DNA from: Vibrio cholerae
Lineage (GTDB): Bacteria; Actinomycetota; Actinomycetes; Actinomycetales; Micrococcaceae
NCBI GenBank assembly: GCA_009728235.1
Contig: WNZI01000002.1
Location: 1 to 64,000 of the forward strand
Direction of reading: 5' to 3'
DNA length: 64,000 bases
Below the pieces are notes generated by a model, which did no database searches, was not told the DNA's origin, and saw nothing but the letters and a program-made list of their open reading frames with translations. Position numbers and translations under genes: made by a program. Below are positions 9,808-36,487 of this stretch, piece after piece. The first letter of the stretch is position 1. Each line of letters starts with the position of its first letter.

Positions 9808-10866
9808 ATGAAGCGCAAAGTAGCGCTCACCGTGGCCATTCTCGGTTTAACCACACTCGGCCTCTCAGGCTGCGTGGTCGATGACACCCAGCAGGAGTCC
9901 GCGGAAGGTGAACTCGGCGGAAGCCTGACCGTGGCCTGCGGTGCAATGGAGGACTGGTGCCAGGCCATGACGACCGCCTTCACCGAGAAGACCGGCGTCC
10001 AAACCAACTTCGTCAGGCTCTCCTCTGGTGAAACCGTGGCCCGCCTCGAAGCCGCTAAGGACTCCCCTGAGTTCGATGTATGGCACGGCGGCCCGGCTGA
10101 TGGCTACGGAACGGCCAGTGACGCCGGGTTGCTGGAGCAGTACGAGTCGCCCAACGCTGCCGAGATTCCCGAGAAGTACCGCGATGACGAGAACTTCTGG
10201 ACCGGCGTGTACGTCGGCGCCCTTGGGTTCTGCTCTAATCAGTCCAAGCTCGACTCCCTTGGCGTCGACGTGCCGACCGTTTGGGAAGACCTCCTGGATC
10301 CCGCACTCAAAGGACAGGTGTCGACAGCACACCCGTCGACGTCAGGCACGGCCTTCACCACGCTGTGGACGCAGGTCACTTTGGCGAACGGCGACGAGGA
10401 CGTTGCGTTCGACTACATGCGTCAGCTTCACAACAACGTGCTGCAGTACTCCAAGAGCGGTACAGCCCCTGGCCAGGCCGCAGGCCGCGGTGAGGTGGCT
10501 GTTGGGCTGGTCTTCACCCATGACTGCGTGAAGTACAAGGAAGCGGGCATGAATGACCTTGTGGTCTCCCTGCCCGAGGAAGGCACCGGTTATGAGGTCG
10601 GCGGTGTCGGCATCGTGAAGGGCACAAAGAACCTTGCTGCCGCTCAGGCCTACATTGACTGGTCGTTGACGCCCGAGGCACAGGACATTGGTCCTACCGT
10701 CGGCTCGTATCAGGTCCTGACGAACCCGGAGTCTGTGCAGGACGATCGCATGATTGACCTCGAAACAACGAATCTCGTGGACTACGACTTCGCCGCAGCC
10801 GCAGCCGCAAAAAAGGAACTCACTACTCGCTTCGATGAAGAAATTGCGGCTCAGCCCCGCGAGTAG
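9808..10866 (+). CDS. ABC-transporter substrate-binding lipoprotein, AfuA-like
   Basis: A 352-residue extracytoplasmic binding protein with a lipoprotein signal: hydrophobic segment then GLSGC, lipidation at Cys22. The mature part has the ferric/organophosphate-type type II fold: GSLTVACGAMEDWCQAMTTA, FDVWHGGPADGY, PSTSGTAFTTLW and a central VFTHDC. I took the ATG at 9808, which has an aaagg ribosome binding site; an upstream in-frame ATG at 9691 lies within the promoter. The family is routinely labelled as iron(III)-binding. The tyrosine pair that binds iron in FbpA is not visible here, and the kinase and OPA carrier beside it point to a phosphorylated sugar or similar ligand, as shown for AfuA. 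Confidence 0.85.
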   Translation: MKRKVALTVAILGLTTLGLSGCVVDDTQQESAEGELGGSLTVACGAMEDWCQAMTTAFTEKTGVQTNFVRLSSGETVARLEAAKDSPEFDVWHGGPADGYGTASDAGLLEQYESPNAAEIPEKYRDDENFWTGVYVGALGFCSNQSKLDSLGVDVPTVWEDLLDPALKGQVSTAHPSTSGTAFTTLWTQVTLANGDEDVAFDYMRQLHNNVLQYSKSGTAPGQAAGRGEVAVGLVFTHDCVKYKEAGMNDLVVSLPEEGTGYEVGGVGIVKGTKNLAAAQAYIDWSLTPEAQDIGPTVGSYQVLTNPESVQDDRMIDLETTNLVDYDFAAAAAAKKELTTRFDEEIAAQPRE

Positions 10867-10920
10867 CCTGCAGCCTTACAAACTGCCGCCTACCATCCGT
10901 TCCTCGCAAGGAGTTCGACC

Positions 10921-12660
10921 GTGAGCCTTGATACGCTCCCCGCCGCTGCCCTCCCGGCGGCCGCCCCACCCCGAAGAGGGTCCCGCCAGGGTGGGGCCAA
11001 AATGGATACCATCACCAAACTGGTGATCACCGTCGTCGTACTGATCCTGGCGATCCTGATCGGCTACCCACTGGTCCGTATCCTGACTCAGGCCTTCGGA
11101 GCGGACGGTCTCGAGACGCTACAGAACATCTTCACTTCGCCCGCGAATCGCACAGTCCTGCTGAACACCGTCATCCTCGGCATCCTCGTCGGTGCGCTCG
11201 CAACTGCCATCGGATTTGCGTTCGCCTACGCGCAGGCCCGGCTCGACTTCCGCGGCAAAAAATTCCTGCACCTGATAGCACTCCTACCCATCGTGTCGCC
11301 ACCGTTCGCAGTCGCAACAGCAGTAATCACTCTCTTCGGCCGCAGCGGACTGGTCACCAATAAGCTGCTCGGCCTGGACTACAACATCTACGGGCTGACC
11401 GGCCTCACACTGGTCCTGTCACTGTCCTTCTTCCCCGTCGCCTACATGAACCTGCTCGGGATGCTCCGCAGCCTGGACCCAGCGACGGACGAAGCAGCAT
11501 CAAGCCTTGGTGCCAACCGCTGGAAAATTTTCCGGAGCGTCACCATCCCTATGCTCATCCCGGGCTTCGCGAGCTGCTTCCTGTTGCTCTTCGTCGAGGC
11601 AATCGCTGACCTCGCGAATCCCTTGGTGATCGGTGGTGACTTCACGGTCCTGTCATCGCGTGCATACATCGCCATCACCGGTGAGTACGACGTCGCCAGC
11701 GGCGCCGCTTACTCCCTAGTACTCCTGCTCCCCGGACTGCTCGTCTTCCTTGTGCAGCGGTACTGGGCGGAACGGCGCAGCGTAGTCTCGGTAACCGGAA
11801 AGCCCTCCGGTAACGTGACGATGCTTCGCTCGCCCTTGGCCCGGATCCCTCTACTGACCGTCGTGCTGGCAATCGCCGCACTGATCGTCGCAATCTACGT
11901 GACAGTTTTCGTGGGAGCCTTCACCGCGATCCTCGGCGTGAACAACACGTTCACGCTTGCGAACTACCGATACGTGCTCTCGGGCATCGGTTCCGACGCC
12001 ATGTTCACCACCACCATCCTGGCCCTGATCGCCACGCCCATCGCCGGCGTACTCGGCATGATCCTCGCCTGGCTGGTGGTCCGAAAGGTCCGTCGCGGCC
12101 GCGGAGCCCTCGACTTCCTCGGCATGCTCGGACTTGCCGTCCCGGGCACCGTCCTTGGCATCGGCTATGCACTGGCTTTCAACAAGCCATTCATCATCGG
12201 CAACATCCAGCTACTCCCAGCGCTAGCAGGCGGCGGGGCGATCTTCGGCGGAGCCCTGGCCATTGTCATGGTCTACGTCATCCGATCCATGCCCTCCGGA
12301 CAGCGTTCCGGCATCGCGGCCCTGCAACAGATCGACCCCGCGATCGACGAGGCATCAACCTCGCTGGGTGCATCCGGGCTTCGAACCTTCCGCAGCATCA
12401 CGCTGCCACTGATCCGGCCAGCGCTGCTCTCTGGTCTGACCTACGCCTTCGCCCGGGCCATGACCACGCTCTCGCCCATCATCTTCATTACCACCCCGCA
12501 AACGAAAATCATGACCTCCCAAATCCTCTCCGAAGTAGATTCGGGCCGATTCGGCAATGCTTTCGCCTACTGCACCATCCTCATCGCGATCGTACTGGGC
12601 GTGATCGGCCTGATGAACCTCCTCATCCGCGACCGCAGCGCACCGACGCGCGTCAACTAA
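10921..12660 (+). CDS. ABC-transporter permease, two fused permease domains
   Basis: The 579-residue protein contains two BPD-type permease modules in tandem, each of about six helices, as in FbpB and AfuB. Each module has its EAA loop for ATPase docking: DEAASSLGANRWKIFRSVTI near residue 190 and DEASTSLGASGLRTFRSITL near residue 480. The start is GTG 10921 after aaggag. The N-terminal 30 residues are Ala/Pro/Arg-rich and cytoplasmic. It lies 54 bases after the binding-protein gene and 34 bases before the ATPase gene, so the three form one operon. It forms the channel for whatever the binding protein delivers. Confidence 0.93.
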   Translation: MSLDTLPAAALPAAAPPRRGSRQGGAKMDTITKLVITVVVLILAILIGYPLVRILTQAFGADGLETLQNIFTSPANRTVLLNTVILGILVGALATAIGFAFAYAQARLDFRGKKFLHLIALLPIVSPPFAVATAVITLFGRSGLVTNKLLGLDYNIYGLTGLTLVLSLSFFPVAYMNLLGMLRSLDPATDEAASSLGANRWKIFRSVTIPMLIPGFASCFLLLFVEAIADLANPLVIGGDFTVLSSRAYIAITGEYDVASGAAYSLVLLLPGLLVFLVQRYWAERRSVVSVTGKPSGNVTMLRSPLARIPLLTVVLAIAALIVAIYVTVFVGAFTAILGVNNTFTLANYRYVLSGIGSDAMFTTTILALIATPIAGVLGMILAWLVVRKVRRGRGALDFLGMLGLAVPGTVLGIGYALAFNKPFIIGNIQLLPALAGGGAIFGGALAIVMVYVIRSMPSGQRSGIAALQQIDPAIDEASTSLGASGLRTFRSITLPLIRPALLSGLTYAFARAMTTLSPIIFITTPQTKIMTSQILSEVDSGRFGNAFAYCTILIAIVLGVIGLMNLLIRDRSAPTRVN

Positions 12661-12694
12661 CTCCTCCTCCCCCCGCAGAACCCTGGAGAACACC

Positions 12695-13846
12695 ATGGCA
12701 ACCATCCTCAGCACCACCAGTGAAACCTCGCGGACGACACTTCCATCAGGAAGCTTGAACCTGAATGACCTCGTCAAGCAGTATCCCGGCGCGGCAAGTA
12801 CCGAACCGGCCGTTGCGGGCATTAGCCTCGACATCCTGCCGGGTGAGTTCCTCACTCTCCTGGGGCCGTCCGGCTGCGGTAAGACCACAACCCTGCGCAT
12901 GATCGCCGGCTTCGAAACACCATCACAAGGATCCATAACCCTCGACGGTGAGGACATGGTGGCACTCACCCCGGACAAGCGGCCGATGGCAATGGTTTTT
13001 CAGTCCTACGCTCTTTTCCCCCATATGAGCGTCTTCGACAACGTTGCCTACGGGCTTCGACTCCAGAAGCTCTCCAAGAAGCGAGTGGAAGAGGAGGTGA
13101 ACTTCGCCCTCGCCTCCATGAGCCTCGCCAAACTCGCCGACCGGGCACCTAATCAACTCTCCGGTGGTCAGCAGCAACGCGTCGCACTGGCCCGTGCAAT
13201 GGTCATGAAGCCCAAGGTCCTGCTCTTCGACGAGCCACTGTCGAACCTCGATGCGAAGCTTCGCGTCCAAATGCGCACCGAGATCCGCGCCCTCCAGCAC
13301 AAGCTCGGCATCACCAGCGTCTACGTCACCCACGACCAGGACGAGGCCATGAGCCTGTCCGACCGCATCGTCGTCATGCGCCAGGGCCGAATCGAGCAGG
13401 TCGCCACACCGGAGACGGTCTACCGGAAACCGGCGTCGGTTTTCGTCGCCGACTTCATCGGTCGCGCGAATTTCCTGGACACAGAAATTGTCGAACTGAT
13501 TCCGGGTATCGGCAGCCCCCGAGCTTCAGTGGTTGCCCTCGGCTCGTCCTATACCGTGCCCGCTCACGACGACGTACAGGCAAGCAGCCACGTATGCCTG
13601 ATGGTGCGGCCAGAGTCCGTCATCCTCGCCCCCGCTCCTGACGCCCGCGACGTGGCAGGAAACCGCGGACGCGTTCTCAAATCCGTGTTCTACGGCGCCT
13701 GGGTCGAATACGAGATCGAAACGGTCGGCGGCAACGTAACCGCCGTCATACATGACCCAGCTCCCGGGGACATCCTGAATGCCGGCACCTTCGTGCAGGT
13801 GTCCTTCGAACAGGATCGCGCCTGGCTGCTACCCGCCGAGGACTAG
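12695..13846 (+). CDS. ABC-transporter ATPase, FbpC/PotA type
   Basis: The 383-residue ATPase shows Walker A GPSGCGKTT, Q-loop VFQSYALFPH, signature [14 protein letters not shown], Walker B VLLFDEPLSNLD and switch histidine THDQDEA. The C-terminal 130 residues form an OB-fold/TOBE regulatory domain (FVADFIGRANFLDTEIV and onward). The N-terminus has an extra stretch of about 15 residues before the first conserved strand (LNLNDLVKQYPGA). The ATG at 12695 follows ggag. It would energise the fused permease. A small perfect repeat, AGACGT-CAA-ACGTCT at 13845-13859, separates it from the downstream carrier gene. Confidence 0.95.
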   Translation: MATILSTTSETSRTTLPSGSLNLNDLVKQYPGAASTEPAVAGISLDILPGEFLTLLGPSGCGKTTTLRMIAGFETPSQGSITLDGEDMVALTPDKRPMAMVFQSYALFPHMSVFDNVAYGLRLQKLSKKRVEEEVNFALASMSLAKLADRAPNQLSGGQQQRVALARAMVMKPKVLLFDEPLSNLDAKLRVQMRTEIRALQHKLGITSVYVTHDQDEAMSLSDRIVVMRQGRIEQVATPETVYRKPASVFVADFIGRANFLDTEIVELIPGIGSPRASVVALGSSYTVPAHDDVQASSHVCLMVRPESVILAPAPDARDVAGNRGRVLKSVFYGAWVEYEIETVGGNVTAVIHDPAPGDILNAGTFVQVSFEQDRAWLLPAED

Positions 13847-13907
13847 ACGTCAAACGTCTTCCCAGCACTGCACTACCCACTCGCAACATCACCAAAGGAC
13901 AGGAACC

Positions 13908-15308
13908 ATGACTCAATCCACGACCCGTGGCACCTGGGCCGACAAGGGACTCATGAGGTTCCTCGCCGCGCCCCCACCCTCCGAGCGCGTCGACGAAACC
14001 ACGGCAAGAAAGCGTTACCCGAAGCTCCGTCTCCAGGTTTTCCTCGGCATCTTCATCGGCTACGCGGGCTACTACCTCGTCCGCAATAACGTTCCGCTCG
14101 TCGCGACGATCCTGCGCGACGAGGAGGGTTTCACAACCCTCGGTCTCGGCATCATCACCAACGCCGTACTGGTGGCGTACGGTCTCAGCAAGTTCCTGAG
14201 CGCCATCGTCAGCGACCGCAGCAGTGCCCGGCTCTTCCTCCCCATCGGGCTCGCGCTCTCAGGGTGTGCGAACCTGTTCATCGGCTTCATGCCGGGCATC
14301 GGTGCGAGCGTCGCCTTCTTCGCGCTCGTCATGATCTTCAACGGATTCGTCCAGGGAATGGGGTGGCCTCCCAGCGGACGCACCCTGGTGCACTGGTTCT
14401 CAACCTCGGAGCGCGGCTCGAAGACAGCGCTATGGAACGTAGCCCACAACATTGGAGGTGCCGGTTCCGGAGCCCTCGCCGGCGTGGCACTGGCGACCTT
14501 CGGCAATTGGCAGGCCGCCTTCTGGTTCCCCGGCATCGTTGGCCTCGTCATCGCTGTCATTGCCTACTTCCTGCTTCGCGACACCCCGGAATCGGAGGGC
14601 CTTCCTCCCATCGAGGAGTATCGGAACGATCCCGCACCGGTCGAATCCGATGCGGCCGACCTTGATGCATCGACGTGGCAAACCGTCAACCGTTACGTCA
14701 TCCGCAACGCCACCATGGTGAAGCTGGCGATGGCCAACGTGTTCGTTTACACGTTGCGTTACGGCGTCCTCGTGTGGGCTCCGGTGTACCTAGCGGACGA
14801 ACGCGGAGCGAGCCTCGGTGAGGGCATCGCAGGATTCTCGCTCTTCGAGCTCGCCGGCATCCCGGGAACCTTGCTCTGCGGTTACATCAGCGACAAGGTG
14901 TTCCGCGGACGCCGTTCCCCCGCGGGCATCACCTTCCTGATCGGTGTCTTCCTCGCCGTCCTGGTCTACTGGCTATCCCCGGTCGAGTGGCCGCTCGGCG
15001 TCTCCTACGCCGCCCTCGTCGTCATCGGTGGACTGATCTACGGGCCCGTTATGCTCATCGGCCTGCAGGCACTGGACCTCAGCCCGCGCAAGGTCGCCGG
15101 CACAGCTGCAGGCTTCACCGGCCTCTTCGGCTACGTGCTCGGAGCGACGCTCGCCTCAACAGGCATCGGCCTCTCTGTGCACAACTTCGGCTGGGACATC
15201 ACCTTCATCCTGATCCTCGCGTGCGTCCTGCTCGCCATCGCCTTCATGTACTCCGTAGGCCGTGACGAAAAGGCCATGCGGGAACGGAAGCTCGGAGAAC
15301 GAGCCTAA
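13908..15308 (+). CDS. OPA-family (GlpT/UhpT/UhpC-type) organophosphate carrier
   Basis: A 466-residue MFS protein of about 12 helices, starting at the ATG at 13908 behind aaagga. It carries the organophosphate:phosphate antiporter signatures. YYLVRNN has Arg59 in the position of GlpT Arg45. QGMGWPPSGRTLVHWFST is the family motif. WNVAHNIGG has His180 matching GlpT His165, and VYTLRYGVLVWAP has Arg284 matching GlpT Arg269. With both phosphate-binding arginines kept, it should transport a phosphorylated compound such as glycerol 3-phosphate, phosphoglycerate or a sugar phosphate. A sensor role like that of UhpC is the alternative. It ends the module; a terminator follows. Confidence 0.93.
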   Translation: MTQSTTRGTWADKGLMRFLAAPPPSERVDETTARKRYPKLRLQVFLGIFIGYAGYYLVRNNVPLVATILRDEEGFTTLGLGIITNAVLVAYGLSKFLSAIVSDRSSARLFLPIGLALSGCANLFIGFMPGIGASVAFFALVMIFNGFVQGMGWPPSGRTLVHWFSTSERGSKTALWNVAHNIGGAGSGALAGVALATFGNWQAAFWFPGIVGLVIAVIAYFLLRDTPESEGLPPIEEYRNDPAPVESDAADLDASTWQTVNRYVIRNATMVKLAMANVFVYTLRYGVLVWAPVYLADERGASLGEGIAGFSLFELAGIPGTLLCGYISDKVFRGRRSPAGITFLIGVFLAVLVYWLSPVEWPLGVSYAALVVIGGLIYGPVMLIGLQALDLSPRKVAGTAAGFTGLFGYVLGATLASTGIGLSVHNFGWDITFILILACVLLAIAFMYSVGRDEKAMRERKLGERA

Positions 15309-25224: not shown

Positions 25225-26127
25225 ATGCGTGCTGCCCGTTTCCACTCGTACGGAGCCCCCGACGTTCTCGTCATCGACGACGCCCCGGAACCACACGCCA
25301 GCGAGGGATCGGTGCGGATCAGGGTGCATGCCACGAGCGTGAACCCGATCGACGTCCTCCTGCGCGCCGGGCATCTCCAGCAGTTCCTGCCCCTGACCTT
25401 GCCCGCCATCCCCGGCCGGGATGCTGTCGGTGTCGTCGACGAACTTGGTCCTGGCGTGACGGACACGCAGGTAGGTGACGTGGTGTTCGGCTTGGGCGGG
25501 ATCAGTGCCACCACAGCCGAATTCGCTGTCCTGACGGCGTGGAGCACTGTTCCTGAGAGCTGGTCGACGGCGCAGGCAGCCGCAGCAGGCCTCGCCTCCG
25601 CCACCGCCGCGGCCGTGATCGAAGCGTTGGGCGACCTGGACGGCAAGACCTTCCTCATCGAGGGCGCTTCAGGTGCCGTAGGCAGCGCCGCCGCAGCGTT
25701 CGCTCTCGCCGCCGGCGCCACTGTCATCGGCACGGGACGAGAGAGCAACCACCCCTACCTGGAATCACTCGGTGTTCTCCCGACAACCTATGGCCCAGGG
25801 ATGGCCGATCGGGTGGCCGTCCTCGCGCCTGGCGGCGTGGACGCAGCCCTGCATTCCGCCCCGTCGAACTCGTTGCCGGACCTGCTGGGCATCGTCGGGG
25901 ACACCTCCCAGGTCGTCACCGTCATCGACCAGGAGGGAGCTGCACGACTCGGCGTCAGGAGTGTGAGCGCCCGCAACGACTCAGCCCTCCTGCGGTATGC
26001 CGCCGCGCTCGGGAAGGAAGGGCTCTACACACCCCGCGTCGACCGGGAGTTCTCGCTGTCAGGCGTCATCGAGGCACATACCCTGGCCGAGAACGGCAGT
26101 GGCAAGGTAGTCATCACGCAACCCTGA
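25225..26127 (+). CDS. NADPH-dependent zinc-less alcohol dehydrogenase / quinone reductase
   Basis: The 300-residue protein belongs to the MDR superfamily, quinone oxidoreductase branch. The GroES-like domain holds VNPIDVLLRAGHLQQFLPLT and PAIPGRDAVGVVDELGPGV. The Rossmann domain has a nucleotide motif as GASGAVGSAAAAF near residue 155. There are no zinc-binding cysteines, as in the quinone reductase group. It would reduce quinones or enones with NADPH. The gene is divergent from a MarR regulator that probably induces it upon electrophile exposure. A 10-bp hairpin follows. Confidence 0.9.
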   Translation: MRAARFHSYGAPDVLVIDDAPEPHASEGSVRIRVHATSVNPIDVLLRAGHLQQFLPLTLPAIPGRDAVGVVDELGPGVTDTQVGDVVFGLGGISATTAEFAVLTAWSTVPESWSTAQAAAAGLASATAAAVIEALGDLDGKTFLIEGASGAVGSAAAAFALAAGATVIGTGRESNHPYLESLGVLPTTYGPGMADRVAVLAPGGVDAALHSAPSNSLPDLLGIVGDTSQVVTVIDQEGAARLGVRSVSARNDSALLRYAAALGKEGLYTPRVDREFSLSGVIEAHTLAENGSGKVVITQP

Positions 26128-26712: not shown

Positions 26713-27540
26713 GTGACGATGATTCGACCGGATATAGCAGTGCTTGCCCGCATCCGGACCTCCAAGGGTTCGCTCGGCCCGAGTGAGGCAAAGGTGGCTA
26801 GCGTCATCTTGGCTGATGCGGAGGAAGTAGTTGACTGGTCAACAGCGGAGTTGGCGTCAAGAGCAGGCACGTCGACAGCCACGGTGATTCGTGCCTGCCA
26901 AAGCCTCGGATTCCGCGGCTTTCAGCATCTCCGCCTCGAGCTTGCGCGGTCAGTACCTCTCTTGCCGAGAGAACAGGACGACATCGTTGGAGGGACTTTC
27001 AATGACGCCTTGGTCACTCTCCGGCTCGCGCAGGAGAGCATTGATCCTGCCCGCATCGAGACTATCGCTGAGGAGATACGAGCTGCTGCCCGTGTTGTTC
27101 TGGTCGGTAACGGGTTTTCGGGTCCTCCGCTGCAAGATTTCGCGATGCGATTGAGTACCTTGGGTCGATGGGTGGAGGCTCCTGTAGATCCACTTGCTCA
27201 ACAGTTTGCCGTTCACTCCCTGAAGCCGGGCGAGATCTGCTTCGCGTTGAGTTACTCCGGGGCTAACGTACAGACGCTGCAGGCTTGTGCTGCGGCGGCA
27301 GAGCGGAACGCCCGGGTGCTCGTGGTCACCAGCTACGCGCAGTCCCCGCTGGGTCGTCTTGCAGATCTCGTCGTGTCGACAGGTCCGGTAGCTGGATCCC
27401 ATGATGTCGATCCGTACCTGGCACGGCTCGGACACACGGTCGCCCTTCACGCGATCCACGCCGCAATCGGTCGCCATGTTCGGCCCGCTGAGATGTCCGA
27501 CATGAGGCACGTTGTCGTAGATGCCCTAGCGGAAGGCTAG
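26713..27540 (+). CDS. RpiR-family (HTH + SIS domain) regulator
   Basis: The 275-residue protein has an N-terminal HTH_6 domain (SEAKVASVILADAEEVVDWS, SRAGTSTATVIRACQSLGFR). A SIS domain follows at about residues 120-245 (ARVVLVGNGFSG, then CFALSYSGANVQTLQACAAA). SIS domains bind phosphosugars, so RpiR proteins sense sugar phosphates. The start is GTG 26713, or the in-frame ATG at 26719. It heads a cluster of phosphatases and an importer, and a dyad lies just before the next gene (27615-27631). A phosphorylated inducer would fit the whole cluster. Confidence 0.92.
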   Translation: MTMIRPDIAVLARIRTSKGSLGPSEAKVASVILADAEEVVDWSTAELASRAGTSTATVIRACQSLGFRGFQHLRLELARSVPLLPREQDDIVGGTFNDALVTLRLAQESIDPARIETIAEEIRAAARVVLVGNGFSGPPLQDFAMRLSTLGRWVEAPVDPLAQQFAVHSLKPGEICFALSYSGANVQTLQACAAAAERNARVLVVTSYAQSPLGRLADLVVSTGPVAGSHDVDPYLARLGHTVALHAIHAAIGRHVRPAEMSDMRHVVVDALAEG

Positions 27541-27614
27541 GACCCTTCAGCCGCTGTTCACATCGGAGCCACCTCGTGATCACCACGGATACAAGCCCCT
27601 GTTCGCTTCGTCCG

Positions 27615-27631
27615 TTGTAATGAAGTTACAA
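27615..27631. promoter_or_regulatory. Inverted repeat, likely RpiR operator
   Basis: TTGTAA-N5-TTACAA is a perfect dyad 31-47 bases ahead of the phosphatase start. A weaker related sequence, GTTGTGAAACGAGGTAAC, follows immediately. It is positioned to control the six-gene phosphatase/transport operon downstream of the RpiR gene. Confidence 0.6.
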
Positions 27632-27661
27632 GCGTTGTGAAACGAGGTAACGGAGTGATTG

Positions 27662-28330
27662 GTGCAGGTAATCGAGGTCAGCGGGCTGTTCAACGTGCGC
27701 ACCAGCAGTCCCGAAACCCCCTGGCTGGTGCGCTCAGGCGCTGCGGAGGGCATCACCCCTGAGGGGTCCGCCGCACTGAAAGCTCTGGGTGTGGTCCTAG
27801 TACTGGACCTTCGTGAGCCCTCTGAAGTGGGACTCGTCGTCCACGGTGTGCCTGTTCAGTCCGTGCAGCTTTACGGTACTGAACCGCCTGCCATAGGGCG
27901 CCTCGAGGAAATCTACGAATCCCTTCTGCGTGAACGCGGCCACGCCCTGACCAAGGCGGTGAGTGTGATTGCAGAGGCCAAAGGTGGCGTTCTCGTTCAC
28001 TGCACGGCAGGAAAAGATCGTACTGGTCTCGTGGTCGCCCTAGCGCAACTCGCCAGCGGTATGCCGCCATCGGAGGTTATCGAGGATTACACCCTGTCGG
28101 CGCCTGAGGTGAGAGCAGCGCGTGAAGTAATTGCACTCCGCGTGGCTGATGCTGCACCGGAGACCGACCGTGCGGAGACTTTGCGACTTCACCTGGATAG
28201 TCCGCCTGAGGCGATGCAGCACGCGTTGTCCGTCATCGAAGAGCTAGGCGGTGCTGAAGCGTACCTTCTTGCTCACGGTCTCTACGCCGGGCACCTCACG
28301 ACTCTTCGACGCAAGCATCGGGGAACCTGA
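27662..28330 (+). CDS. Tyrosine-phosphatase-like (Y_phosphatase3) protein
   Basis: The 222-residue protein has the Cys-dependent phosphatase P-loop HCTAGKDRTG at about residue 120, preceded by the conserved VVLVLDLREPSEV strand. It is of the Y_phosphatase3 type found in actinobacteria and lipid or inositol phosphatases such as LipA. A C-terminal helical region (EEAMQHALSVIEELGG-like) also fits that family. It starts with GTG 27662, with ggag seven bases upstream; a TTG at 27659 is also possible. It is the first gene of the operon and overlaps the next by one base. It may dephosphorylate an imported phosphoester rather than a protein. Confidence 0.85.
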   Translation: MQVIEVSGLFNVRTSSPETPWLVRSGAAEGITPEGSAALKALGVVLVLDLREPSEVGLVVHGVPVQSVQLYGTEPPAIGRLEEIYESLLRERGHALTKAVSVIAEAKGGVLVHCTAGKDRTGLVVALAQLASGMPPSEVIEDYTLSAPEVRAAREVIALRVADAAPETDRAETLRLHLDSPPEAMQHALSVIEELGGAEAYLLAHGLYAGHLTTLRRKHRGT

Positions 28331-29118
28331 TGAGCCGGGAAACCGGTCGTTTGACGGTGCTACACCTGAGCGACATCCACGTCACCGACGAGGGCCTGCT
28401 CTATGACGCTGTCGACGGGGTGGAGCGGATCCGCACTGTGGGTGCTTATGTCAAAGAAGCGGGTATCACCCCCGAGGCAATCGTTGTCACCGGTGACCTG
28501 ATACAGCGCGGACATGCGCATGCGTACCGGCGAGTGGACGATGCTTTGGCTGAATTGGCACGTGCCACAAGAGTGCCGGTGCTCACCGTCATCGGCAATC
28601 ACGATGACCCTGAGCAGGCTCGGGTGCTACGTGGTCACGAGCAGGGGCACCATCGGGTGGTGCTTGTCGATGACCTGCGATTCGTCCTGCTCGATTCATC
28701 GATGGGGCGCCTCGGAGCAGAGCAAGTCGCCTGGCTTCGGGATGCCTTGCACGCTCCATATGGCGCCGGTACGGTCGTCGCCCTCCACCATCCACCGCTT
28801 GGATCCCCGCTGCCGACACTTGCGAAGGCCGGGTTACAGGATGCTGACGCTTTCCTGGATGCAGTGCGGGGCACGGACGTGCGTGCAGTCCTCGCAGGCC
28901 ACTTCCACCATCCGCTGTTCGGGACCCTCGGCGATGTACCCGTCTCGGTGGGGCCCTCGCTGGCCTACCACCAGGTCATGGACGCTGGACCTGACCGGGT
29001 GAGCGGCCACGACTCGGCGATGTTCTCGCTCCTGCATCTGATGCCGGGCGGGGTCACGACGACCAGCGTGAGTCTCGATTCCCCGTCCCCTCTTTTCACC
29101 TCCCCCATCATCCGTTGA
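28330..29118 (+). CDS. Metallophosphoesterase, CpdA/GpdQ type
   Basis: The 262-residue calcineurin-like enzyme has all five metal motifs in order: LHLSDIH (D-x-H), VVTGDLIQRG (GD), IGNHDD (GNHD), ALHHPP and AGHFHHP (GHxH). Family members hydrolyse cyclic nucleotides or glycerophosphodiesters; the GpdQ and CpdA subgroup is closest by layout. There is no signal peptide, so it acts in the cytoplasm. The ATG at 28330 overlaps the phosphatase stop. In this cluster an imported phosphodiester would be a sensible substrate, to be completed by the phosphomonoesterase genes on each side. Confidence 0.92.
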   Translation: MSRETGRLTVLHLSDIHVTDEGLLYDAVDGVERIRTVGAYVKEAGITPEAIVVTGDLIQRGHAHAYRRVDDALAELARATRVPVLTVIGNHDDPEQARVLRGHEQGHHRVVLVDDLRFVLLDSSMGRLGAEQVAWLRDALHAPYGAGTVVALHHPPLGSPLPTLAKAGLQDADAFLDAVRGTDVRAVLAGHFHHPLFGTLGDVPVSVGPSLAYHQVMDAGPDRVSGHDSAMFSLLHLMPGGVTTTSVSLDSPSPLFTSPIIR

Positions 29119-29134
29119 CTCCAGTTAGGACATC

Positions 29135-30187
29135 ATGACCACCGTTCGCAACGCCCTCCCTCTCGCAGTCCTCAGCATCTCGGCACTCGCATTAGCGGGT
29201 TGTTCCACGAGTGCAGCGTCAGCGCCGGAATCGACATCGGCATCTACGAGCGACTCGTCGGTAGCCGCCCTCGAGCCGGCAACGATCACCGTTTACACCT
29301 CCGAGCCCCAGGAGAAGGCCGACGAGCTTGTCGCTACGTTCAATAAGGTTCATCCTGAGGTCACTGTCGAGGTGTTCCGTGCCGGAACCGGTGATCTGAC
29401 CACCAGGGTAGCCACCGAGCAGCAGTCAGGCGGCGTCCAGGCCGATGTCTTCCTCGCCGCAGATGCCGGCACCTTTGAGGACTACGCCGCAAAGGACCTG
29501 CTGTTGCAGTACACCCCAGCCGACGTCGACGCGGTCAACCGCGACGTCGTCGACCCGGAGGGTTACTATACGGGCACTCGCATCATCCCCACCGTGATCG
29601 CCTACAACACCGGGATCATCACCGAAGCACCCGAATCCTGGGCTGACCTGACCGACTCGAAGTACGCCGATCAGATCGTCATGCCGAACCCCGACGTCTC
29701 GGGTGCTGCCGCCTACAACTCGGCCGTATGGCTGAACGAGGCCGAGCTCGGTGAGGAATGGCTGACCGCCCTTGCCGACAACAACCCGGTGATCGCCGAC
29801 AGTAACGGCCCAGTGTCGCAGGCGGTTGCAACCGGCGCGCAGCCGGTAGGGGTTGTGGTTGACTACTTGGTGCGTGAACTCGCCGAGCAGGGCTCGCCGA
29901 TCGCCGTGTCATACCCGTCCGAGGGTGTACCGTACGTTTCCCAGCCGGTCGGCATCTTCGCTGACACGGAGGAAGTCGAGGCGTCGCAGGCGTTCGTCGA
30001 CTTCCTCGTGAGCTCCGCTGGACAGGAACTCGCCGTCGAGCAGTCCTATTTGCCGGTTCGTTCCGATGTCGGTACGCCAGAGGGTGCTCCTTCCATGGAG
30101 GACATCACGATCCTCTCCCCCGACCTCGAGACCATCCGAAGCACGCAGGACTCGGCTGTTGAGACGTTCCGGAAGCTGTTCCTCTAG
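29135..30187 (+). CDS. ABC-transporter substrate-binding lipoprotein
   Basis: The 350-residue binding protein has a lipoprotein signal (ALALAGC, Cys23) and a Ser/Thr spacer. The type II fold includes ITVYTSEPQEKADELVATFN, VFRAGTGDLTTRVATEQQSG, VQADVFLAADAGTFEDYAAK and VVVDYLVRELAEQG. It resembles binding proteins annotated for 2-aminoethylphosphonate or iron. No tyrosine pair for iron is visible. The ATG at 29135 has a weak site. It lies 16 bases after the phosphoesterase and abuts the permease gene. Phosphatases on both sides argue for an organic phosphate as ligand. Confidence 0.9.
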   Translation: MTTVRNALPLAVLSISALALAGCSTSAASAPESTSASTSDSSVAALEPATITVYTSEPQEKADELVATFNKVHPEVTVEVFRAGTGDLTTRVATEQQSGGVQADVFLAADAGTFEDYAAKDLLLQYTPADVDAVNRDVVDPEGYYTGTRIIPTVIAYNTGIITEAPESWADLTDSKYADQIVMPNPDVSGAAAYNSAVWLNEAELGEEWLTALADNNPVIADSNGPVSQAVATGAQPVGVVVDYLVRELAEQGSPIAVSYPSEGVPYVSQPVGIFADTEEVEASQAFVDFLVSSAGQELAVEQSYLPVRSDVGTPEGAPSMEDITILSPDLETIRSTQDSAVETFRKLFL

Positions 30188-31858
30188 GTGAACAGCATTG
30201 TCTTCCCTTCCGCGGGCCCGGCACCTCGCCGGGTCCGCGGCATTTCCGGTCACAGGTTCGACGGCGTCGATGCGCTCACGATCGGGCTCTGGCTCGCGTG
30301 CAGTGTGTTCGTGCTGCTTCCCATCGCGTCGATCCTCCTGCTGGCCGGAAGCGGTAACCAGCTCTCGGTCCTCCTTCAGGGCGATGTCATCGAAGCGGGC
30401 ATCAATAGTCTGGTTTCAGCATCGACATCAGCACTCCTGGCCGTCGTCATCGGTACTGCCTTCGCGATCATGCTCGACCGAACCGACCTTACCGGCCGCA
30501 CTCCGCTTCGACTCCTCGCGCTCAGCCCTCTGCTCATTCCACCATTCGTCGGAGCAATTGCTTGGCTGGGGGTCGCCGGTCCCACCAGTCCTGTCAATCT
30601 TTGGTGGCGCCAGACCTTTGGCGCACCCCTGTGGTCCATATACGGAGCCGACGGCGTCATCCTGCTCTTGACGGTGCACAGCTACCCGATCGCGATGCTT
30701 ATCGTGTCAGCGGCCCTCCGCCGTATTCCGACCGATCTCGAGCAGGCAGCCCGCATCGGTGGCGCCGGTCTAGGTCGAGCTATCGCCACCATCACCGTGC
30801 CGTTGCTGCGCCCGGCCCTGATGTCCTCGTTCATCCTCATTGCCGTCAGCAACCTCGCTGATTTCGGGATCCCCTCGATCATCGGGCTTCCCGAGCGGTA
30901 CGTGACGCTTGCCACCCTCGTGTACCGATACCTGCAGTCCGGGATAGTCGATGAGCCTCTCGCCGTCGTTGCGACCATCGGGGTCGTGTTGCTGGTACTG
31001 GCCGTGCTGGCGCTCATCGCTGATGCCTTGCTTGGTCGGAAGAAGTGGGAACTCGATTCCTCAGCTGCGGTGATTGAACGCCTTCCACTTGGACACGCTC
31101 GGACGCCGCTGGGCGTGCTCACCTGGATCGTCGTTCTCACCGTGACGGTTCTCCCGCTGTTGGCCCTGCTCACCCAGACCCTCCTACGCGCACCCGGAGT
31201 TCCACTGACCTGGGAGAACCTGACGTTCGACCATCTGATCCGGGCGGTCACCTCGGCCAATGCGCTGACCGGTGCGGCGAACTCAATGATGCTTGCCTCT
31301 TTGGCTGCTCTCATCTGCGGAGTGCTCGGCCTGGGTATCGGCGTCGTGATCACCCGCGCGCGCAGTAAAACAACCAGTGGTTTGGGGGCGGTAGCGATGG
31401 TTCCGCAGGCTGTGCCGGGTATCGTGATCGCGGTCGCGTGGCTTGTGCTCGCGCCGTCGCTCGGCCTCTTCAATACGCCCTGGTTAATCCTCGTCGCCTA
31501 CGTAACCTCTTTCACTGCGTTGGTCGTGCAGGCAGTGTCGGCACCCCTGGCAAGCACACCGGTCAGCGCTGAGGAAGCCGCCCGTGTCGCCGGAGCCGGC
31601 CGTCTGCGCGCACTGATGGATATCTCCTGCCGGATGTCCCTACCCGCGGCGGTCTCGGGTATGGTCATCGTCGCGGTGACCGCGGTGCGCGAACTCACGC
31701 TCTCGGTGCTGCTGCTCTCACCAGGATCACAGACATTGGGCGTTGCGATCTTCAACTTCCAACAGGCCGGCGCCTTCAGCACCGCGTCCGCCTGGTCACT
31801 CATCGTCGCCGTCCTCGGCATTGCCGTCATCGGGATAGCAACCCGCCGCACCTCCTGA
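30188..31858 (+). CDS. ABC-transporter permease, two fused permease domains
   Basis: The 556-residue protein again holds two permease modules with their docking loops, EQAARIGGAGLGRAIATITV near residue 185 and EEAARVAGAGRLRALMDISC near residue 460. Its GTG start follows the binding-protein stop codon without a gap (TAGGTG), so translation must be coupled. The architecture is the same as that of the first cluster (10921-12660) but the sequences differ throughout, so the two were not recently duplicated. It forms the membrane channel of the importer. Confidence 0.93.
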   Translation: MNSIVFPSAGPAPRRVRGISGHRFDGVDALTIGLWLACSVFVLLPIASILLLAGSGNQLSVLLQGDVIEAGINSLVSASTSALLAVVIGTAFAIMLDRTDLTGRTPLRLLALSPLLIPPFVGAIAWLGVAGPTSPVNLWWRQTFGAPLWSIYGADGVILLLTVHSYPIAMLIVSAALRRIPTDLEQAARIGGAGLGRAIATITVPLLRPALMSSFILIAVSNLADFGIPSIIGLPERYVTLATLVYRYLQSGIVDEPLAVVATIGVVLLVLAVLALIADALLGRKKWELDSSAAVIERLPLGHARTPLGVLTWIVVLTVTVLPLLALLTQTLLRAPGVPLTWENLTFDHLIRAVTSANALTGAANSMMLASLAALICGVLGLGIGVVITRARSKTTSGLGAVAMVPQAVPGIVIAVAWLVLAPSLGLFNTPWLILVAYVTSFTALVVQAVSAPLASTPVSAEEAARVAGAGRLRALMDISCRMSLPAAVSGMVIVAVTAVRELTLSVLLLSPGSQTLGVAIFNFQQAGAFSTASAWSLIVAVLGIAVIGIATRRTS

Positions 31859-31871
31859 AAGAGAGATTTCC

Positions 31872-32948
31872 ATGGCATCTGTCACCCTCGACGCTGTATC
31901 CCTTCGCTACCGCACTGGAGCACTGGGCTTGCAGGACGTCGACCTCCATGTGAATGACGGCGAGTTCCTCGCGTTGGTTGGTCCCTCCGGCTCCGGGAAA
32001 ACCACCCTGCTGCGCAGCGTCGCCGGGTTCCTCGCACCCACCACCGGGCGGGTGCTCATCGGCGACCGCGTCCTAGCGGACGGCCGCACAGCCGTGCCAC
32101 CCGAGCAGCGCCAGTTGGGCATGGTTTTCCAGCAGCACGCCGTGTGGCCGCACTGGGACGTCGGACGGAACGTCGAGTACCCACTTCGCCGGGCCAGGAT
32201 GCCACGAGCCGAACGCCGTCGGCGCGTCACCGAAACACTCGACCTCGTCGGTCTGGCCGACTACGAACGTCGCGACCCCGCTACCCTCTCCGGCGGGCAA
32301 CGCCAACGCGTAGCCCTCGCCAGAGCACTGGTGGCTCGGCCCAGAGTGCTTCTGCTCGATGAGGCACTGTCAGCGCTGGACGAGCCACTTCGCGACCGAC
32401 TACGTCTCGAACTGCACACCCTCACACGTGAACTTGGCCTTACTGTCATCCACGTCACCCACGACCGCTCAGAAGCTCTAGCCCTCGCCGATCGCGTCGC
32501 CGTTCTCGAATCCGGCCAGATCCAACAGATCGACACCCCTGGTGCCCTGCTCACACAACCGCTCACACCGTTCATCGCGCAGTTCCTGTCCGACGCGACC
32601 ATCGTCGGCGGACATGTCACGGACGGTCGATTCCGAGCAACTGATCACCCGCTGGCTATCGCTGACAACCAGACGCGACGTAACGCGTCGAAGGCGAAAG
32701 CAGCGATACTTCCATCGGCCGTGCGCGTCCAGCCCAACCCGCACGGGAGTGCAGTCGTGCGTTCCTCGCTCTTCACACCCGAGGGCAGTGACCTCGTCAT
32801 CGAGTGGGCAGGACTGCGACTACGAGCGAAGCTTCACGGGATACATCCCCGAGTCGGCGACCACGTCGACGTCGAGGTCACCGACGTCCTCATCTACCCG
32901 GCCTCGCCGTCGCACATCGAGGCCAGCAATGCGGAAGTAGCCGCGTGA
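31872..32948 (+). CDS. ABC-transporter ATPase
   Basis: The 358-residue ATPase shows Walker [11 protein letters not shown]-loop [12 protein letters not shown], signature [15 protein letters not shown], Walker [13 protein letters not shown] and switch THDRSEA. The usual DEP after Walker B is DEA here, which is uncommon but tolerated. A TOBE-like C-terminal domain follows from about residue 240. The ATG at 31872 follows gagaga. It overlaps the histidine phosphatase gene by four bases (GTGA), tying the phosphatase tightly to the transporter. Confidence 0.95.
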
Positions 32949-33484
32949 AGCTCGCCCTCGTGCGACACGGTCGCACCGCTTGGAACCACGAACGCCGCAT
33001 GCAGGGCCGGAGCGACGTGCCCTTGGACGACCACGGTCGCGAGCAGGCGGAAGCCGCCGGGCGACTGCTCGGCCGAGCCGTATGGGCCCGCGTCGTCACC
33101 TCACCTCTGGCTCGTGCTCACGAATCGGCCGCAATCATCTGCTCTCACCTACCAGGCACAGAGATGATCGTCGATGCTGACTTGCTGGAACGCGATTACG
33201 GCACTGCAGAAGGCATGAAGGTCGGGGACGCTCATGAGCAGTGGCCGCAGCAGGACTACCCCGGCGCCGAGCCTCTTATCGCCGTCGCACACCGCATGGC
33301 CGGAACCCTCCACCGCCTGTTGTCCCTTCCGGGAAGCACCATCGTCGTCTCACACGGCACAGCCCTGCGCATCGGTCTCGAGGCAGTCACCGACGATACC
33401 TGCCCCCGCATCATAAACGGAGAGGTACTCGCACTCGAGGAACACGAACCGTCCCTGCTACGCGCCAGGCGCCTTCACATCTAG
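32945..33484 (+). CDS. Histidine phosphatase (phosphoglycerate mutase-like)
   Basis: The 179-residue enzyme starts at GTG 32945 with [20 protein letters not shown]: the RHG catalytic motif, with the phosphorylated histidine as H9. The second arginine lies in VVTSPLARAHESA, the acid in ERDYGTAEG, and the second histidine in VVSHGTALR. All catalytic parts are present. Members of this short branch hydrolyse small phosphate esters such as sugar phosphates. It is the last gene of the operon and converges with the next gene, overlapping its stop. Confidence 0.9.
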   Translation: MKLALVRHGRTAWNHERRMQGRSDVPLDDHGREQAEAAGRLLGRAVWARVVTSPLARAHESAAIICSHLPGTEMIVDADLLERDYGTAEGMKVGDAHEQWPQQDYPGAEPLIAVAHRMAGTLHRLLSLPGSTIVVSHGTALRIGLEAVTDDTCPRIINGEVLALEEHEPSLLRARRLHI

Positions 33485-34391: not shown

Positions 34392-34667
34392 TCAGGAGGT
34401 CAGATCACCGCGATAGGGTGCGCGTCCGATAGGTGGGATCTCATCGATGAGCTCATTGATGGCGTGGGCTAGCTTGTCGCACTCCAACGCAGGTAGGACG
34501 ATCATCTGGTTGAGATAAGCGTCGACCTCGTACTCGTCGACGGTGCCCGTGATCGAGAAGTAGTAGAGCCATACCTCGGGCAGGGTGAGTCCGGCCTGAG
34601 CCATCGCGCGGCCGATCTGCCGACGCTGGGTGTCCTCGATGGACCTCGTCGGGTCTTCGCGATTCAT
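34392..34667 (-). CDS. Small conserved protein coupled to ANTAR regulator
   Basis: The 91-residue acidic protein starts MNREDPTRSIEDTQRRQIGR and contains EVWLYYFSITGTVDEYEVDA and LPALECDKLAHAINELIDEI, probably a small three-helix fold with one cysteine. I do not recognise a named family. Its ATG at 34667 overlaps the stop of the upstream GAF-ANTAR gene (ATGA). It probably acts together with that regulator. Confidence 0.65.
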   Translation of the reverse strand: MNREDPTRSIEDTQRRQIGRAMAQAGLTLPEVWLYYFSITGTVDEYEVDAYLNQMIVLPALECDKLAHAINELIDEIPPIGRAPYRGDLTS

Positions 34668-35395
34668 TGTTCCTTGCTAGGTGTCCCGGAAGGCGTGTCG
34701 CGGCGGAGGACGGACTGCGCTAGCTCGTGCAGTGCCACACCTTCGTTGCCGGCCCTGGTCAGGAGGTAGCTGAGGGCTTCATCCTCAGCGAGATCGAGCC
34801 GTTCCATGATCACTCCGCGGGCGGTGGCGACAAGGTCCCGCACGCGCAGGGTGTCCTTGAACGCCCCGCTGATGCGCTGGGGCGTGTCACTGGCCTGGAT
34901 GTGTCCGAGCAGGACCCCGGCTGACGTAGCGAGATGCGTCAGTATCTTCTGATCCTGGGCTGTGAAAGCGCCGGGGGCTGCTGCATAGATCTTCATCGCA
35001 CCGATTCCGTGCGGCCCTTTCTCCAAGGGGACGCTGAAGCAGGAACGGACGCCGGTCTGTGCTGCAGCCGCGCTCCAGGCCTGCCAGCGTCGATCGGTCT
35101 CGGTGTCCTCGATGTATGTGGGCCTGCCCTCGGACCACGCACTGAGGCACGGACCGCTTGCGAGACCGTATTGGAGGTCATCGGCTCGAAGGACGAAGGA
35201 GTCCGTCGCCCCGACGCTGGTCGGCTGGTTGTCCCTGATGAGACTCACCCCGGCTCCGATCGCATGGGGAATGGCTTCCTTGGCCGCAGTTGCGAGAGCG
35301 GACACGGCCTCCTGCGCGGTCTGTTCCGTGAGCAGCAGGCCTTTCGCGCGCCCGATGATGGGTGCGATTTCCGGCAGGGAGGAGTGTTCGTCCAT
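34664..35395 (-). CDS. GAF-ANTAR RNA-binding regulator
   Basis: The 243-residue protein has a GAF sensor domain (about residues 15-165: AIGAGVSLIRDNQPTSVGAT, GPCLSAWSEGRPTYIEDTET, CFSVPLEKGPHGIGAMKIYA). A C-terminal ANTAR domain follows (RDLVATARGVIMERLDLAED, ALSYLLTRAGNEGVALHELA, about 185-230). ANTAR proteins bind paired hairpins in nascent RNA and prevent termination. The ligand of the GAF domain is unknown. Start ATG 35395. It lies 44 bases after the PAS-ANTAR gene and is coupled to the small gene downstream, so all three may share one transcript. Confidence 0.9.
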   Translation of the reverse strand: MDEHSSLPEIAPIIGRAKGLLLTEQTAQEAVSALATAAKEAIPHAIGAGVSLIRDNQPTSVGATDSFVLRADDLQYGLASGPCLSAWSEGRPTYIEDTETDRRWQAWSAAAAQTGVRSCFSVPLEKGPHGIGAMKIYAAAPGAFTAQDQKILTHLATSAGVLLGHIQASDTPQRISGAFKDTLRVRDLVATARGVIMERLDLAEDEALSYLLTRAGNEGVALHELAQSVLRRDTPSGTPSKEQ

Positions 35396-35438
35396 GAGCG
35401 TCTTTCGTTTGTTCGGCTGGTTCCCGGATCGTTAACGG

Positions 35439-36110
35439 CTAGGGCGTCTGGAACAGTTCCAGCAGAGCCTGTGTGATGCGAGCCTGCCCGCTGCCCTGCG
35501 TGAGCTGGCGGGCGCGGTCGATGATGTCCTGCGATACGACGACGACCTTCCGGTTCGTGGTCTGGCTTCGCTGGCTGATCCGCTCGAACGCTTCGGTGGC
35601 ATCGAGGCCCGCGCGACCCATGAGGATGCCCTTGGCCTGTTCGATCACCGCTCGGCTCAGAGCCGAGGCGGCGACAGCCTCGTTGGCGATCTTCTGGGTG
35701 TCGTTGCGGATGGCGCGGGAGAGGTCGACGACCAGGGCCCATACCCCGACCGCACTCTCACCGTTCCGGATGAGATCTCCGGAGACCAGGATTTTGCGGG
35801 TGCGGCCACCGGCGTCGAGGAGGGACAGGTACGCCGAGAGGGGACCGCCCGTCGTCGTCAGTTCTTCCCAATATGCCCTTGCTGCGTCCCGATCCTGATA
35901 CTCGATGTGCGACAGACCCAGGTCCAGGGTGGGCACCACATCACCGCGTGCGTACCCATGGATGCGGTACAGCTCGTCCGACCAGATCAACGTCGGAGAG
36001 TCGAAGAAGTGCTCGACGGTGCCGGTAGGGCAGTCGATGAAGGACTCGATGCTCGCGCGGACGACGTCGTCATCCAGGGTGGACGCGGGTGTTGCGGGAG
36101 GCAAGGACAT
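35439..36110 (-). CDS. PAS-ANTAR RNA-binding regulator
   Basis: The 223-residue protein starts at ATG 36110 (MSLPPATPASTLDDDVVRAS). The PAS_3-type fold covers about residues 20-125 (FFDSPTLIWSDELYRIHGYA, SHIEYQDRDAARAYW). ANTAR covers about 145-205 (AVIEQAKGILMGRAGLDATE, AFERISQRSQTTNRKVVVVS). The upstream reading frame to 36479 is a chance extension through the promoter and the LexA-type box. The domain pair is common in actinobacteria with several ANTAR paralogues. It probably forms a pathway with the GAF-ANTAR protein encoded next. Confidence 0.9.
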   Translation of the reverse strand: MSLPPATPASTLDDDVVRASIESFIDCPTGTVEHFFDSPTLIWSDELYRIHGYARGDVVPTLDLGLSHIEYQDRDAARAYWEELTTTGGPLSAYLSLLDAGGRTRKILVSGDLIRNGESAVGVWALVVDLSRAIRNDTQKIANEAVAASALSRAVIEQAKGILMGRAGLDATEAFERISQRSQTTNRKVVVVSQDIIDRARQLTQGSGQARITQALLELFQTP

Positions 36111-36471
36111 GCCGTTAACCGTTCGACGTGCTCTACCCGGGCCAGCGACTTGACCCGAATCCAAGACAGAACAATAGCAAGACCGAGGGACAACCGGTGC
36201 CAGCCACGTCGTGGTTTCCCAGAAGCGACTCCTTGCCGCCTTCACCCGCGTCGGTCGGGTCCCAGGAGCATCGACAGCTCTGCCGATGGCGGTCACGGGG
36301 GTCTGCTGCCGCTCCATGCCGCTCATCCGGCCAACCCGTGCGCAGGCTACGGGCGCTCTCGAAGCTGGGCTGGACTCCCCCCGAAGGGACCCGAACTCCC
36401 CTGGAATCAGTTCCGGCGGGGACAGCGCCTGGGGCAGGACCACACCGGGCTCGGTCCGCTTCCCAAACCAA
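36111..36471. other. Divergent intergenic region
   Basis: The 360 bases before the LexA-type box hold the promoter of the PAS-ANTAR gene on the minus strand. No credible gene is seen: overlapping frames on both strands have shadow-like composition. Confidence 0.4.
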
Positions 36472-36487
36472 TCGAACATGTGTTCTA
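36472..36487 (+). promoter_or_regulatory. LexA-type SOS box
   Basis: TCGAACATGTGTTCTA matches the actinobacterial LexA consensus TCGAAC-N4-GTTCGA in all but one position (T for G in the last triplet). It lies 47-62 bases before the ATG of the downstream gene, as expected for an SOS promoter. Confidence 0.7.

Follow-up and report, generated by a model that had tools for sequence, protein, structure and literature searches.

Several described systems resemble parts of the locus considered here. AfuABC, a hexose/heptose-phosphate importer of Actinobacillus, and P5PAB are ATP-binding cassette (ABC) importers, and the phosphate contacts of their solute-binding proteins (SBPs), AfuA and P5PA, have been described (PMC4546632; PMC8427247). 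Phosphatases of the ALP family are defined by the P-loop HCXXGKDR[TA]G (PMC3091653), and one soil member of this family, Pho16B, is described as using phytate as well as each of nine further esters that were tested (PMC6409689). In the Rv0805/CpdA subclass of metallophosphoesterases, 68–70 residues are reported to separate the GNHD motif from the next His, and the change His140Ala abolishes cAMP hydrolysis in Rv0805 (PMC4320098). The RpiR family of regulators includes RccR, which binds TGTAGT-N3-ACTACA and a 28-bp form containing that site (PMC5489143). In the present work, we have analyzed a block of seven genes (positions 26713–33484) within a stretch of 64,000 nucleotides of contig WNZI01000002.1 (referred to below as the window), in which relatives of these proteins are encoded side by side. 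The literature searched for this gene combination gave no description of the set, and the block is taken here as an uncharacterised, probable phosphoester uptake operon switched by RpiR.

We regard it as reasonably probable that the block is an RpiR-controlled operon by which an anionic phosphate ester is imported and then dephosphorylated in the cytoplasm. The evidence that carries this reading consists of the gene content of the block, its conservation as a unit, the conserved active sites of its enzymes, the conservation of an operator tied to the presence of RpiR, and the loss, in its binding protein, of the residues that would contact a hexose and of most of those that would contact iron.

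Gene content and conservation of the block

Reading of the sequence places seven open reading frames in the block, all on the + strand, and their Pfam matches agree with the gene families given in the initial annotation. The first encodes an RpiR-family regulator of 275 amino acids (26713–27540; HTH_6, 1.4e-18, and SIS, 3e-9). It is followed by an ALP-type (MptpB/LipA-like) Cys phosphatase (27659–28330; Y_phosphatase3, 4.3e-35; PtpB as top PDB match, 4.1e-9) and by an Rv0805-like class III metallophosphodiesterase without the His140 loop (28330–29118; Metallophos). The importer consists of a lipoprotein SBP of the AfuA/FbpA/PhnS2 type (29135–30187; SBP_bac_6, 6.3e-27), a fused ABC permease with two BPD_transp_1 stretches (30188–31858) and an ABC ATPase (31872–32948; ABC_tran, 1.5e-34). 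The last gene encodes a histidine phosphatase (32945–33484; His_Phos_1, 1.7e-37), whose start is most likely the GTG at 32945, overlapping the ATPase stop codon, rather than the longest-frame start at 32804.

From the ALP phosphatase to the histidine phosphatase the genes adjoin closely, with a 1-nt overlap between the ALP phosphatase and metallophosphodiesterase genes, gaps of 16, 0, and 13 nt at the three following joins, and a 4-nt overlap at the last. The near-complete coupling by overlaps or tiny gaps that was noted initially thus holds for this part of the block (at most 16 nt) but not for the regulator gene, which is separated from the ALP phosphatase gene by 118 nt, the sole long gap in the block and the site of the predicted operator. 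A scan for promoters and terminators gave nothing above shuffled controls. The G+C content is 63.0% for the block vs. 65.2% for the window.

For a neighborhood survey, 16 SBPs were aligned, the alignment was searched against genome contigs, and the best 80 of the 106 relatives were taken; the window is not among these loci, which include six that are end-cut by contig boundaries and one near-identical pair (L077/L079). The ALP phosphatase gene is present in 54 loci, the metallophosphodiesterase gene in 57, both together beside the importer in 52, RpiR in 52, and the histidine phosphatase gene in 45. All seven genes are found in 40 of the 80 loci and the window's order in 39, while the genes flanking the block vary from lineage to lineage, and the arrangement is therefore beyond chance. 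The genera that carry the block include Microbacterium, Pseudoclavibacter, Leucobacter, Agrococcus, Rhodococcus, and Arthrobacter, among others. This conservation, together with the operator counts given below, upholds the initial view of the phosphatase and transport genes as members of one unit, and it suggests that they are probably co-regulated.

A search with the ALP phosphatase within the Micrococcaceae yielded 30 loci, and the metallophosphodiesterase gene adjoins the phosphatase gene in the window and 20 others but not in the remaining 9. The SBP, permease, and ATPase genes are present in 17 of these 20 loci, among which RpiR was found in 6 and the histidine phosphatase in 14 (5' of RpiR in 4). 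Phylum-wide, the two enzyme genes adjoin in 2 of 346 genomes among the matches listed, the window's own genome counted, and the block looks rare in the remainder of the phylum. Clustering of the neighbors of 100 loci revealed no further family at a fixed position across lineages; what recurred was single-genus synteny and large superfamilies at shifting distances (viz. MFS exporter type and short-/medium-chain dehydrogenases, named by eye). A medium-chain dehydrogenase encoded upstream of the block (25225–26127) finds just one relative among these neighbors, a weak one with 33% identity over 176 residues, and for this reason it was excluded from the block. Downstream of the block, two adjacent ANTAR-domain proteins, one of them with a GAF domain, are encoded on the opposite strand (34664–36479).

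The other three Micrococcaceae loci (L051–L053, at about 6–14 kb) carry a different version, in which RpiR, a UgpC-like ATPase, a CUT1 SBP, the ALP phosphatase, the metallophosphodiesterase, and two UgpA/UgpE-like permeases are encoded in one cluster. Since the regulator and these two enzymes are also linked to a CUT1 importer, the enzymes go with import and not with a single importer family. The importer proteins of L053 that were scanned have scores below the cut-offs in the results shown (UgpC, 423.9 of 432), and a name such as glycerol-phosphate importer is thus only a lead for this version. In quick trees, its metallophosphodiesterase and ALP phosphatase fall with lone homologues, outside the block's own clades; in approximately unbiased tests, made after 10 of 56 and 13 of 64 rows, respectively, had been dropped (those on long branches, with some others that were distant or redundant), a single origin was not rejected for either (p 0.23 and 0.21). 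That the enzyme set may have been assembled twice is only the preferred interpretation, the alternative being one set with an importer swap. A pairing of CUT1 and AfuA-like importers is plausible, because in one marine bacterium glycerol phosphates are described as being served by two unrelated SBP families (PMC12718374).

Two further arrangements were noted. In Cryobacterium melibiosiphilum (L077/L079, upstream of 8063), an apparent amino-acid-type ABC importer precedes the ALP phosphatase gene, and no metallophosphodiesterase match was found there. Directly upstream of a lone importer of Microbacterium paludicola (L065) lies an open reading frame (7532–8917) that we take to resemble an IS256-type transposase, at the place where most other Microbacterium loci have RpiR, the ALP phosphatase, and the metallophosphodiesterase.

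The RpiR regulator and its predicted operator

The regulator has both the HTH_6 and the SIS domain of the RpiR family. Residues S182, G183, and N185 of its SIS loop are invariant in 14 aligned RpiR rows. The inverted repeat TTGTAATGAAGTTACAA is located upstream of the ALP phosphatase gene and belongs to a predicted RpiR operator of 28 bp with three half-sites (27616–27643, + strand; TGTAAT-n3-GTTACA-n7-TGAAAC), which ends 15 nt 5' of the phosphatase start codon. The pattern TTGTAAn5TTACAA, with at most one mismatch, has its sole occurrence in the 3.75 Mb genome bin at this predicted operator.

When up to two mismatches are allowed, the window's repeat recurs in 13 of the 79 other upstream regions (mean of shuffles 0.18, largest 1); when up to three are allowed, it recurs in 35 of them (mean 2.0, largest 7). 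A fuller form with all three half-sites (TGNAAY-N3-RTTNCA-N7-TGNAAY), which was defined after the relatives had been viewed, is present in 21 of 80 upstream regions, counting that of the window, whereas 100 rounds of shuffling did not yield it once. Two-part operator forms are found in 38 of the 62 regions that have an adjacent RpiR gene (same strand, within 4 kb) vs. none of the 18 regions without one, and the counts are 38 of 61 vs. 0 of 13 when near-identical copies are counted once. Five Rhodococcus regions with RpiR carry GGAAC-N3-GTTCC in the same layout. The regulator of the block may be a repressor or an activator; RpiR proteins of both kinds occur, and NanR of Streptococcus pneumoniae is described as an activator (PMC12713135).

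The hydrolases, the binding protein, and competing readings

The active-site residues of the three hydrolases are conserved in aligned relatives, and no signal sequence was seen on any of them when read by eye; their substrates should thus be cytoplasmic. The ALP phosphatase of the window has the P-loop HCTAGKDRTG, in agreement with the family signature, which is also found in all 74 other loci with an ALP phosphatase match above 45 bits, six of which are second or near-identical copies. A natural Lys directly after the P-loop Cys (HCK) occurs in six loci, five of them distinct (L043, L044, L045, L050, and L048, the last from the same genome as L131), and a natural Arg (HCR) in two (L084 and L124). 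The same Lys change in MptpB is reported to have opened activity toward more highly phosphorylated inositides (PMC3091653). In the histidine phosphatase, the RHG motif and H137 are invariant in 14 aligned rows.

The nearest PDB relative of the metallophosphodiesterase is Rv0805 (131.8 bits, 2.7e-37), and the seven metal ligands of its motifs (D-x-H, GD, GNHD, H, and GH-x-H) are present in 19 of 19 aligned rows. In the window's protein, the spacing from GNHD to the next His is 60 or 61 residues, depending on which of two His is taken, and lies outside the 68–70 residues of the Rv0805/CpdA subclass, while the other spacings (37, 32, and 35) fit. With Rv0805 numbering set by the ligands that we take to be Asp21 and His23, no His stands in the His140 column in any of 16 rows from importer blocks, 12 of which lack the loop and four of which have a His five columns away, whereas the CUT1 version retains the loop and has His in 3 of 3 rows. 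Rv0805 no longer hydrolyses cAMP once His140 is changed to Ala, and since this His is missing here, the protein should not be given the name cAMP phosphodiesterase. The block had initially been credited with three cytoplasmic phosphatases; the lack of a visible signal sequence and the conserved active sites support this, but one of the three is a class III phosphodiesterase relative with Rv0805 as its nearest match, and a diesterase step is therefore better founded than three phosphatases. Two more Rv0805-like metallophosphoesterases are encoded in the window's genome (L180 and L181, at G000:C35:15517-16278 and G000:C7:97960-98709), with no match to the block's other genes within about 6 kb of them.

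It is conceivable, though in our view unlikely, that the targets of the enzymes are an internal signal or phosphorylated proteins, the importer doing no more than sharing their operon. MptpB, itself an ALP, is described as having protein and phosphoinositide phosphatase activity (PMC3091653), Rv0805 hydrolyses cyclic nucleotides, with low affinity for cAMP (PMC13001264), and importers free of the enzymes exist. Against this, the same regulator and two enzyme types accompany two different importer families, and the metallophosphodiesterase of the window lacks the loop bearing the residue whose mutation abolishes cAMP hydrolysis in Rv0805 (PMC4320098).

The best PDB match of the SBP by sequence is AfuA (4e-12), with P5PA third (2.6e-10). 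The predicted structure of the SBP (pLDDT 87.8) has helices that begin at residues 85, 190, and 224. In an alignment of 37 rows (the window and 36 chosen from the 80 loci), with residues mapped through the PDB alignment, the AfuA and P5PA phosphate contacts correspond to T85, G86, S189, G190, A191, S223, and N224, all of which are invariant. The Ser/Thr-Gly pocket at helix N-termini is thus mostly retained (T85, G86, S189, G190, and S223), with T85 at the place of AfuA S37, and A191 and N224 replacing AfuA T150 and G185. The sugar triad of AfuA is kept at one of three positions: H205 is V242 and D206 is D243 in all 37 rows, and the place of E229, which is V268 in the window, is held by Val in 32 rows and Ile in 5. 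The invariant residues E57, D110, R149, D243, and R247 are candidates for contacts to the remainder of the ligand.

It is doubtful that the block encodes a hexose-phosphate importer of the AfuABC type to which phosphatases have been added as accessories. AfuA is the best sequence match, T85 and D243 answer to its S37 and D206, and VIA-align on the SBP model also places AfuA first (Z 33.7), but two of the three residues that define its sugar site are altered and its T150 is replaced by A191. The ranking by fold was itself rejected as evidence for the ligand, as VIA-align ties AfuA with MctA, with FutA1 and HitA close behind, and Foldseek on the same model puts HitA on top. The place of P5PA among the PDB matches and the common phosphate pocket would point to a cofactor or nucleotide that is taken up in phosphorylated form (pyridoxal phosphate, nucleotides, or thiamine phosphates) and dephosphorylated inside. 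This is improbable: V242 stands where P5PA has its ring contact H203, and no recurring cofactor or nucleotide gene was recognised beside the block across lineages, the families being judged by eye.

The names of a putative 2-aminoethylphosphonate importer, PhnS2, PhnU2, and PhnT2 (TIGR03261/3262/3265), are the top NCBIfam matches of the SBP, permease, and ATPase, but all three scores are far under the curated cut-offs (131.7 of 392.75, 139.8 of 593.25, and 283.7 of 457.7 bits, respectively). The genome bin, which is 95% complete, has no PhnJ match, and its five matches to phosphonatase models are all sub-cut-off (best, 77.2 of 220 bits), in keeping with the initial statement that C-P lyase and phosphonatase genes are absent; PhnW, PhnY/PhnZ, and PhnA were not tested. 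Import of 2-aminoethylphosphonate is on these grounds very improbable. Ferric iron import is hardly credible, for although the fold is common to FbpA and HitA, Foldseek puts HitA first, and S189-G190-A191 with N224 presumably resemble the FbpA anion site, the HitA alignment keeps one Tyr position only (Y244, with Ser in 4 of 37 rows) of the FbpA iron ligands, which we take to be H9, E57, Y195, and Y196, and the three hydrolases would be left unexplained. Iron and 2-aminoethylphosphonate had been named at the outset as poor default annotations, and the residues and cut-offs bear this out.

Several observations weigh against the favored reading of the block as an RpiR-controlled phosphoester importer. 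Neither operator form is present in 19 of the 62 RpiR-bearing regions, 3 of which carry a TGTAAG variant; the strength of the operator counts is limited by the post hoc relaxing of the patterns and by kinship among the regions and their genomes; and the presence of RpiR and of the operator may both simply track lineage. The fold search cannot separate AfuA, MctA, and FbpA, and the phosphate contact T150 of AfuA is Ala in the SBP. Iron binders of the FbpA type also bind a synergistic anion, at a similar site, and the phosphate pocket alone is therefore no proof of a phosphoester. Finally, 20 complete loci (16 from Rhodococcus or Rhodococcoides, the others from Millisia, Propioniciclava, Brevibacterium, and one Microbacterium) and one truncated locus consist of SBP, permease, and ATPase genes, with no ALP phosphatase, metallophosphodiesterase, RpiR, or histidine phosphatase within 6.5 kb, which indicates that the importer can manage locally without the enzymes.

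For the phosphoester reading we infer a substrate class, an order of steps, and an inducer as follows, with repression or activation by RpiR as variants of the last step. The lipoprotein SBP would bind the phosphate of the ligand at the helix-N-terminus pocket common to AfuA and P5PA, the other half of the pocket would read the remainder, and the fused permease and ATPase would bring the ligand inside. The metallophosphodiesterase would then cut a phosphodiester, or work as a phosphoesterase, and the ALP and histidine phosphatases would strip phosphate monoesters. A phosphorylated compound, either the ligand or an intermediate, would probably bind the SIS domain of RpiR and so switch the operator before the ALP phosphatase gene; a released sugar phosphate was the inducer proposed initially.

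More tentatively, the substrate may be an intact phosphodiester or a multiply phosphorylated polyol (e.g., a glycerophospho-polyol or a cyclic polyol phosphate), which would be imported whole, opened by a metallophosphodiesterase that does not act on cAMP, and stripped by the cytoplasmic ALP phosphatase. The ALP family, known as virulence factors, would thereby gain an ordinary nutrient role, and the same pathway may have evolved two times, once around an AfuA-like and once around a UgpB-like importer. A link to inositol catabolism was considered and rejected: IolD is over the cut-off in 8 of 21 block-bearing Micrococcaceae (3 of them with the CUT1 version) vs. 66 of 176 others, for which block presence was checked in the 30 loci of the ALP phosphatase search and not in each genome, and it is not found in the window's genome. 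Because IolD does not accompany the block, inositol as a carbon source is disfavored, while inositol phosphates as a phosphorus source are not.

Origin of the window copy and comparison with known systems

The window's genome belongs with the Micrococcaceae. Its SBP shows 80% identity to that of Microbacterium sp. CBA3102 vs. 53–60% to 15 Micrococcaceae members, and in the SBP tree it lies within a group of 17 rows (support 99), the remaining rows of which are from Microbacteriaceae, including [Zimmermannella] faecalis. In 10 other genomes of the same genus, the search with the ALP phosphatase gave no match better than 2e-13. An alanyl-tRNA synthetase piece of 299 residues, encoded in the window about 25 kb from the block, shows 80–95% identity to its counterparts in all 11 of the other genomes compared from the same genus, and for this reason the contig looks native. 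A contaminant contig was considered and is opposed by this piece; a chimeric join within the contig is a small residual possibility. Since the copy groups with Microbacteriaceae while the genome groups with Micrococcaceae and the contig looks native, it is likely that the block reached its host by transfer, and the operon is probably mobile. A scan for tRNAs at 20–40 kb of the window found none, and thus no tRNA marks an integration site there.

Elsewhere in the window (7989–15308), a histidine kinase and a response regulator (best name PhoB) are encoded together with three importer parts (a PhnS2-like SBP, a fused permease, and an ATPase) and with an MFS transporter that resembles GlpT (504 bits, cut-off 633). 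The places of AfuA S37, T150, S184, G185, and E229 are occupied in this SBP by Ser, Thr, Ser, Gly, and Glu, respectively, and its phosphate residues are thus AfuA-like. The cluster is likely another organophosphate uptake system, with its own sensor and relatives of the same importer parts. The initial description of the two clusters as non-paralogous fails for the importer, as the SBPs share 24% identity (E 2e-11) and the permeases 25% (E 1.7e-16).

The block represents a concrete and widely spread gene set for the uptake of a probable organic phosphorus compound, whereas 2-aminoethylphosphonate would be read from the family models and iron from the PDB names. It also provides a genetic handle on RpiR switches that serve phosphorus or phosphosugar uptake in actinobacteria and on the role of environmental ALP phosphatases, a question left open in PMC3091653.

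Among known systems, the glycerol-phosphate importers GpxB and UgpB (PMC12718374) show two unrelated SBP families for one substrate, one of them CUT1, which may also hold for the two versions of the block; GpxB is a PhnT-family protein, and the main text of that paper is without the words phosphatase and metallophos-. The predicted operator is like those of the RpiR regulators RccR and HexR (PMC5489143) in its 15-bp inverted repeat, its 3-nt spacer, and a 28-bp form containing the repeat, but the target genes of these regulators differ from those of the block. The ALP phosphatase shares its P-loop with MptpB and Lmo1800 (PMC3091653) and with the phytase Pho16B (PMC6409689), and it differs from them in having no visible signal sequence, in lying within an importer operon, and in its length (223 residues vs. 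296 in PtpB). The metallophosphodiesterase has its seven metal ligands in common with Rv0805 and the class III phosphodiesterases, from which the window's protein is set apart by the deletion of the His140 loop and the shorter spacing from GNHD to the next His. The importer is like AfuABC (PMC4546632) and P5PAB (PMC8427247) in its combination of SBP and ABC type and in a phosphate pocket formed by three helix N-termini, whereas the ring-binding residues of those systems are replaced in the block, and hydrolases and an RpiR switch are linked to it.

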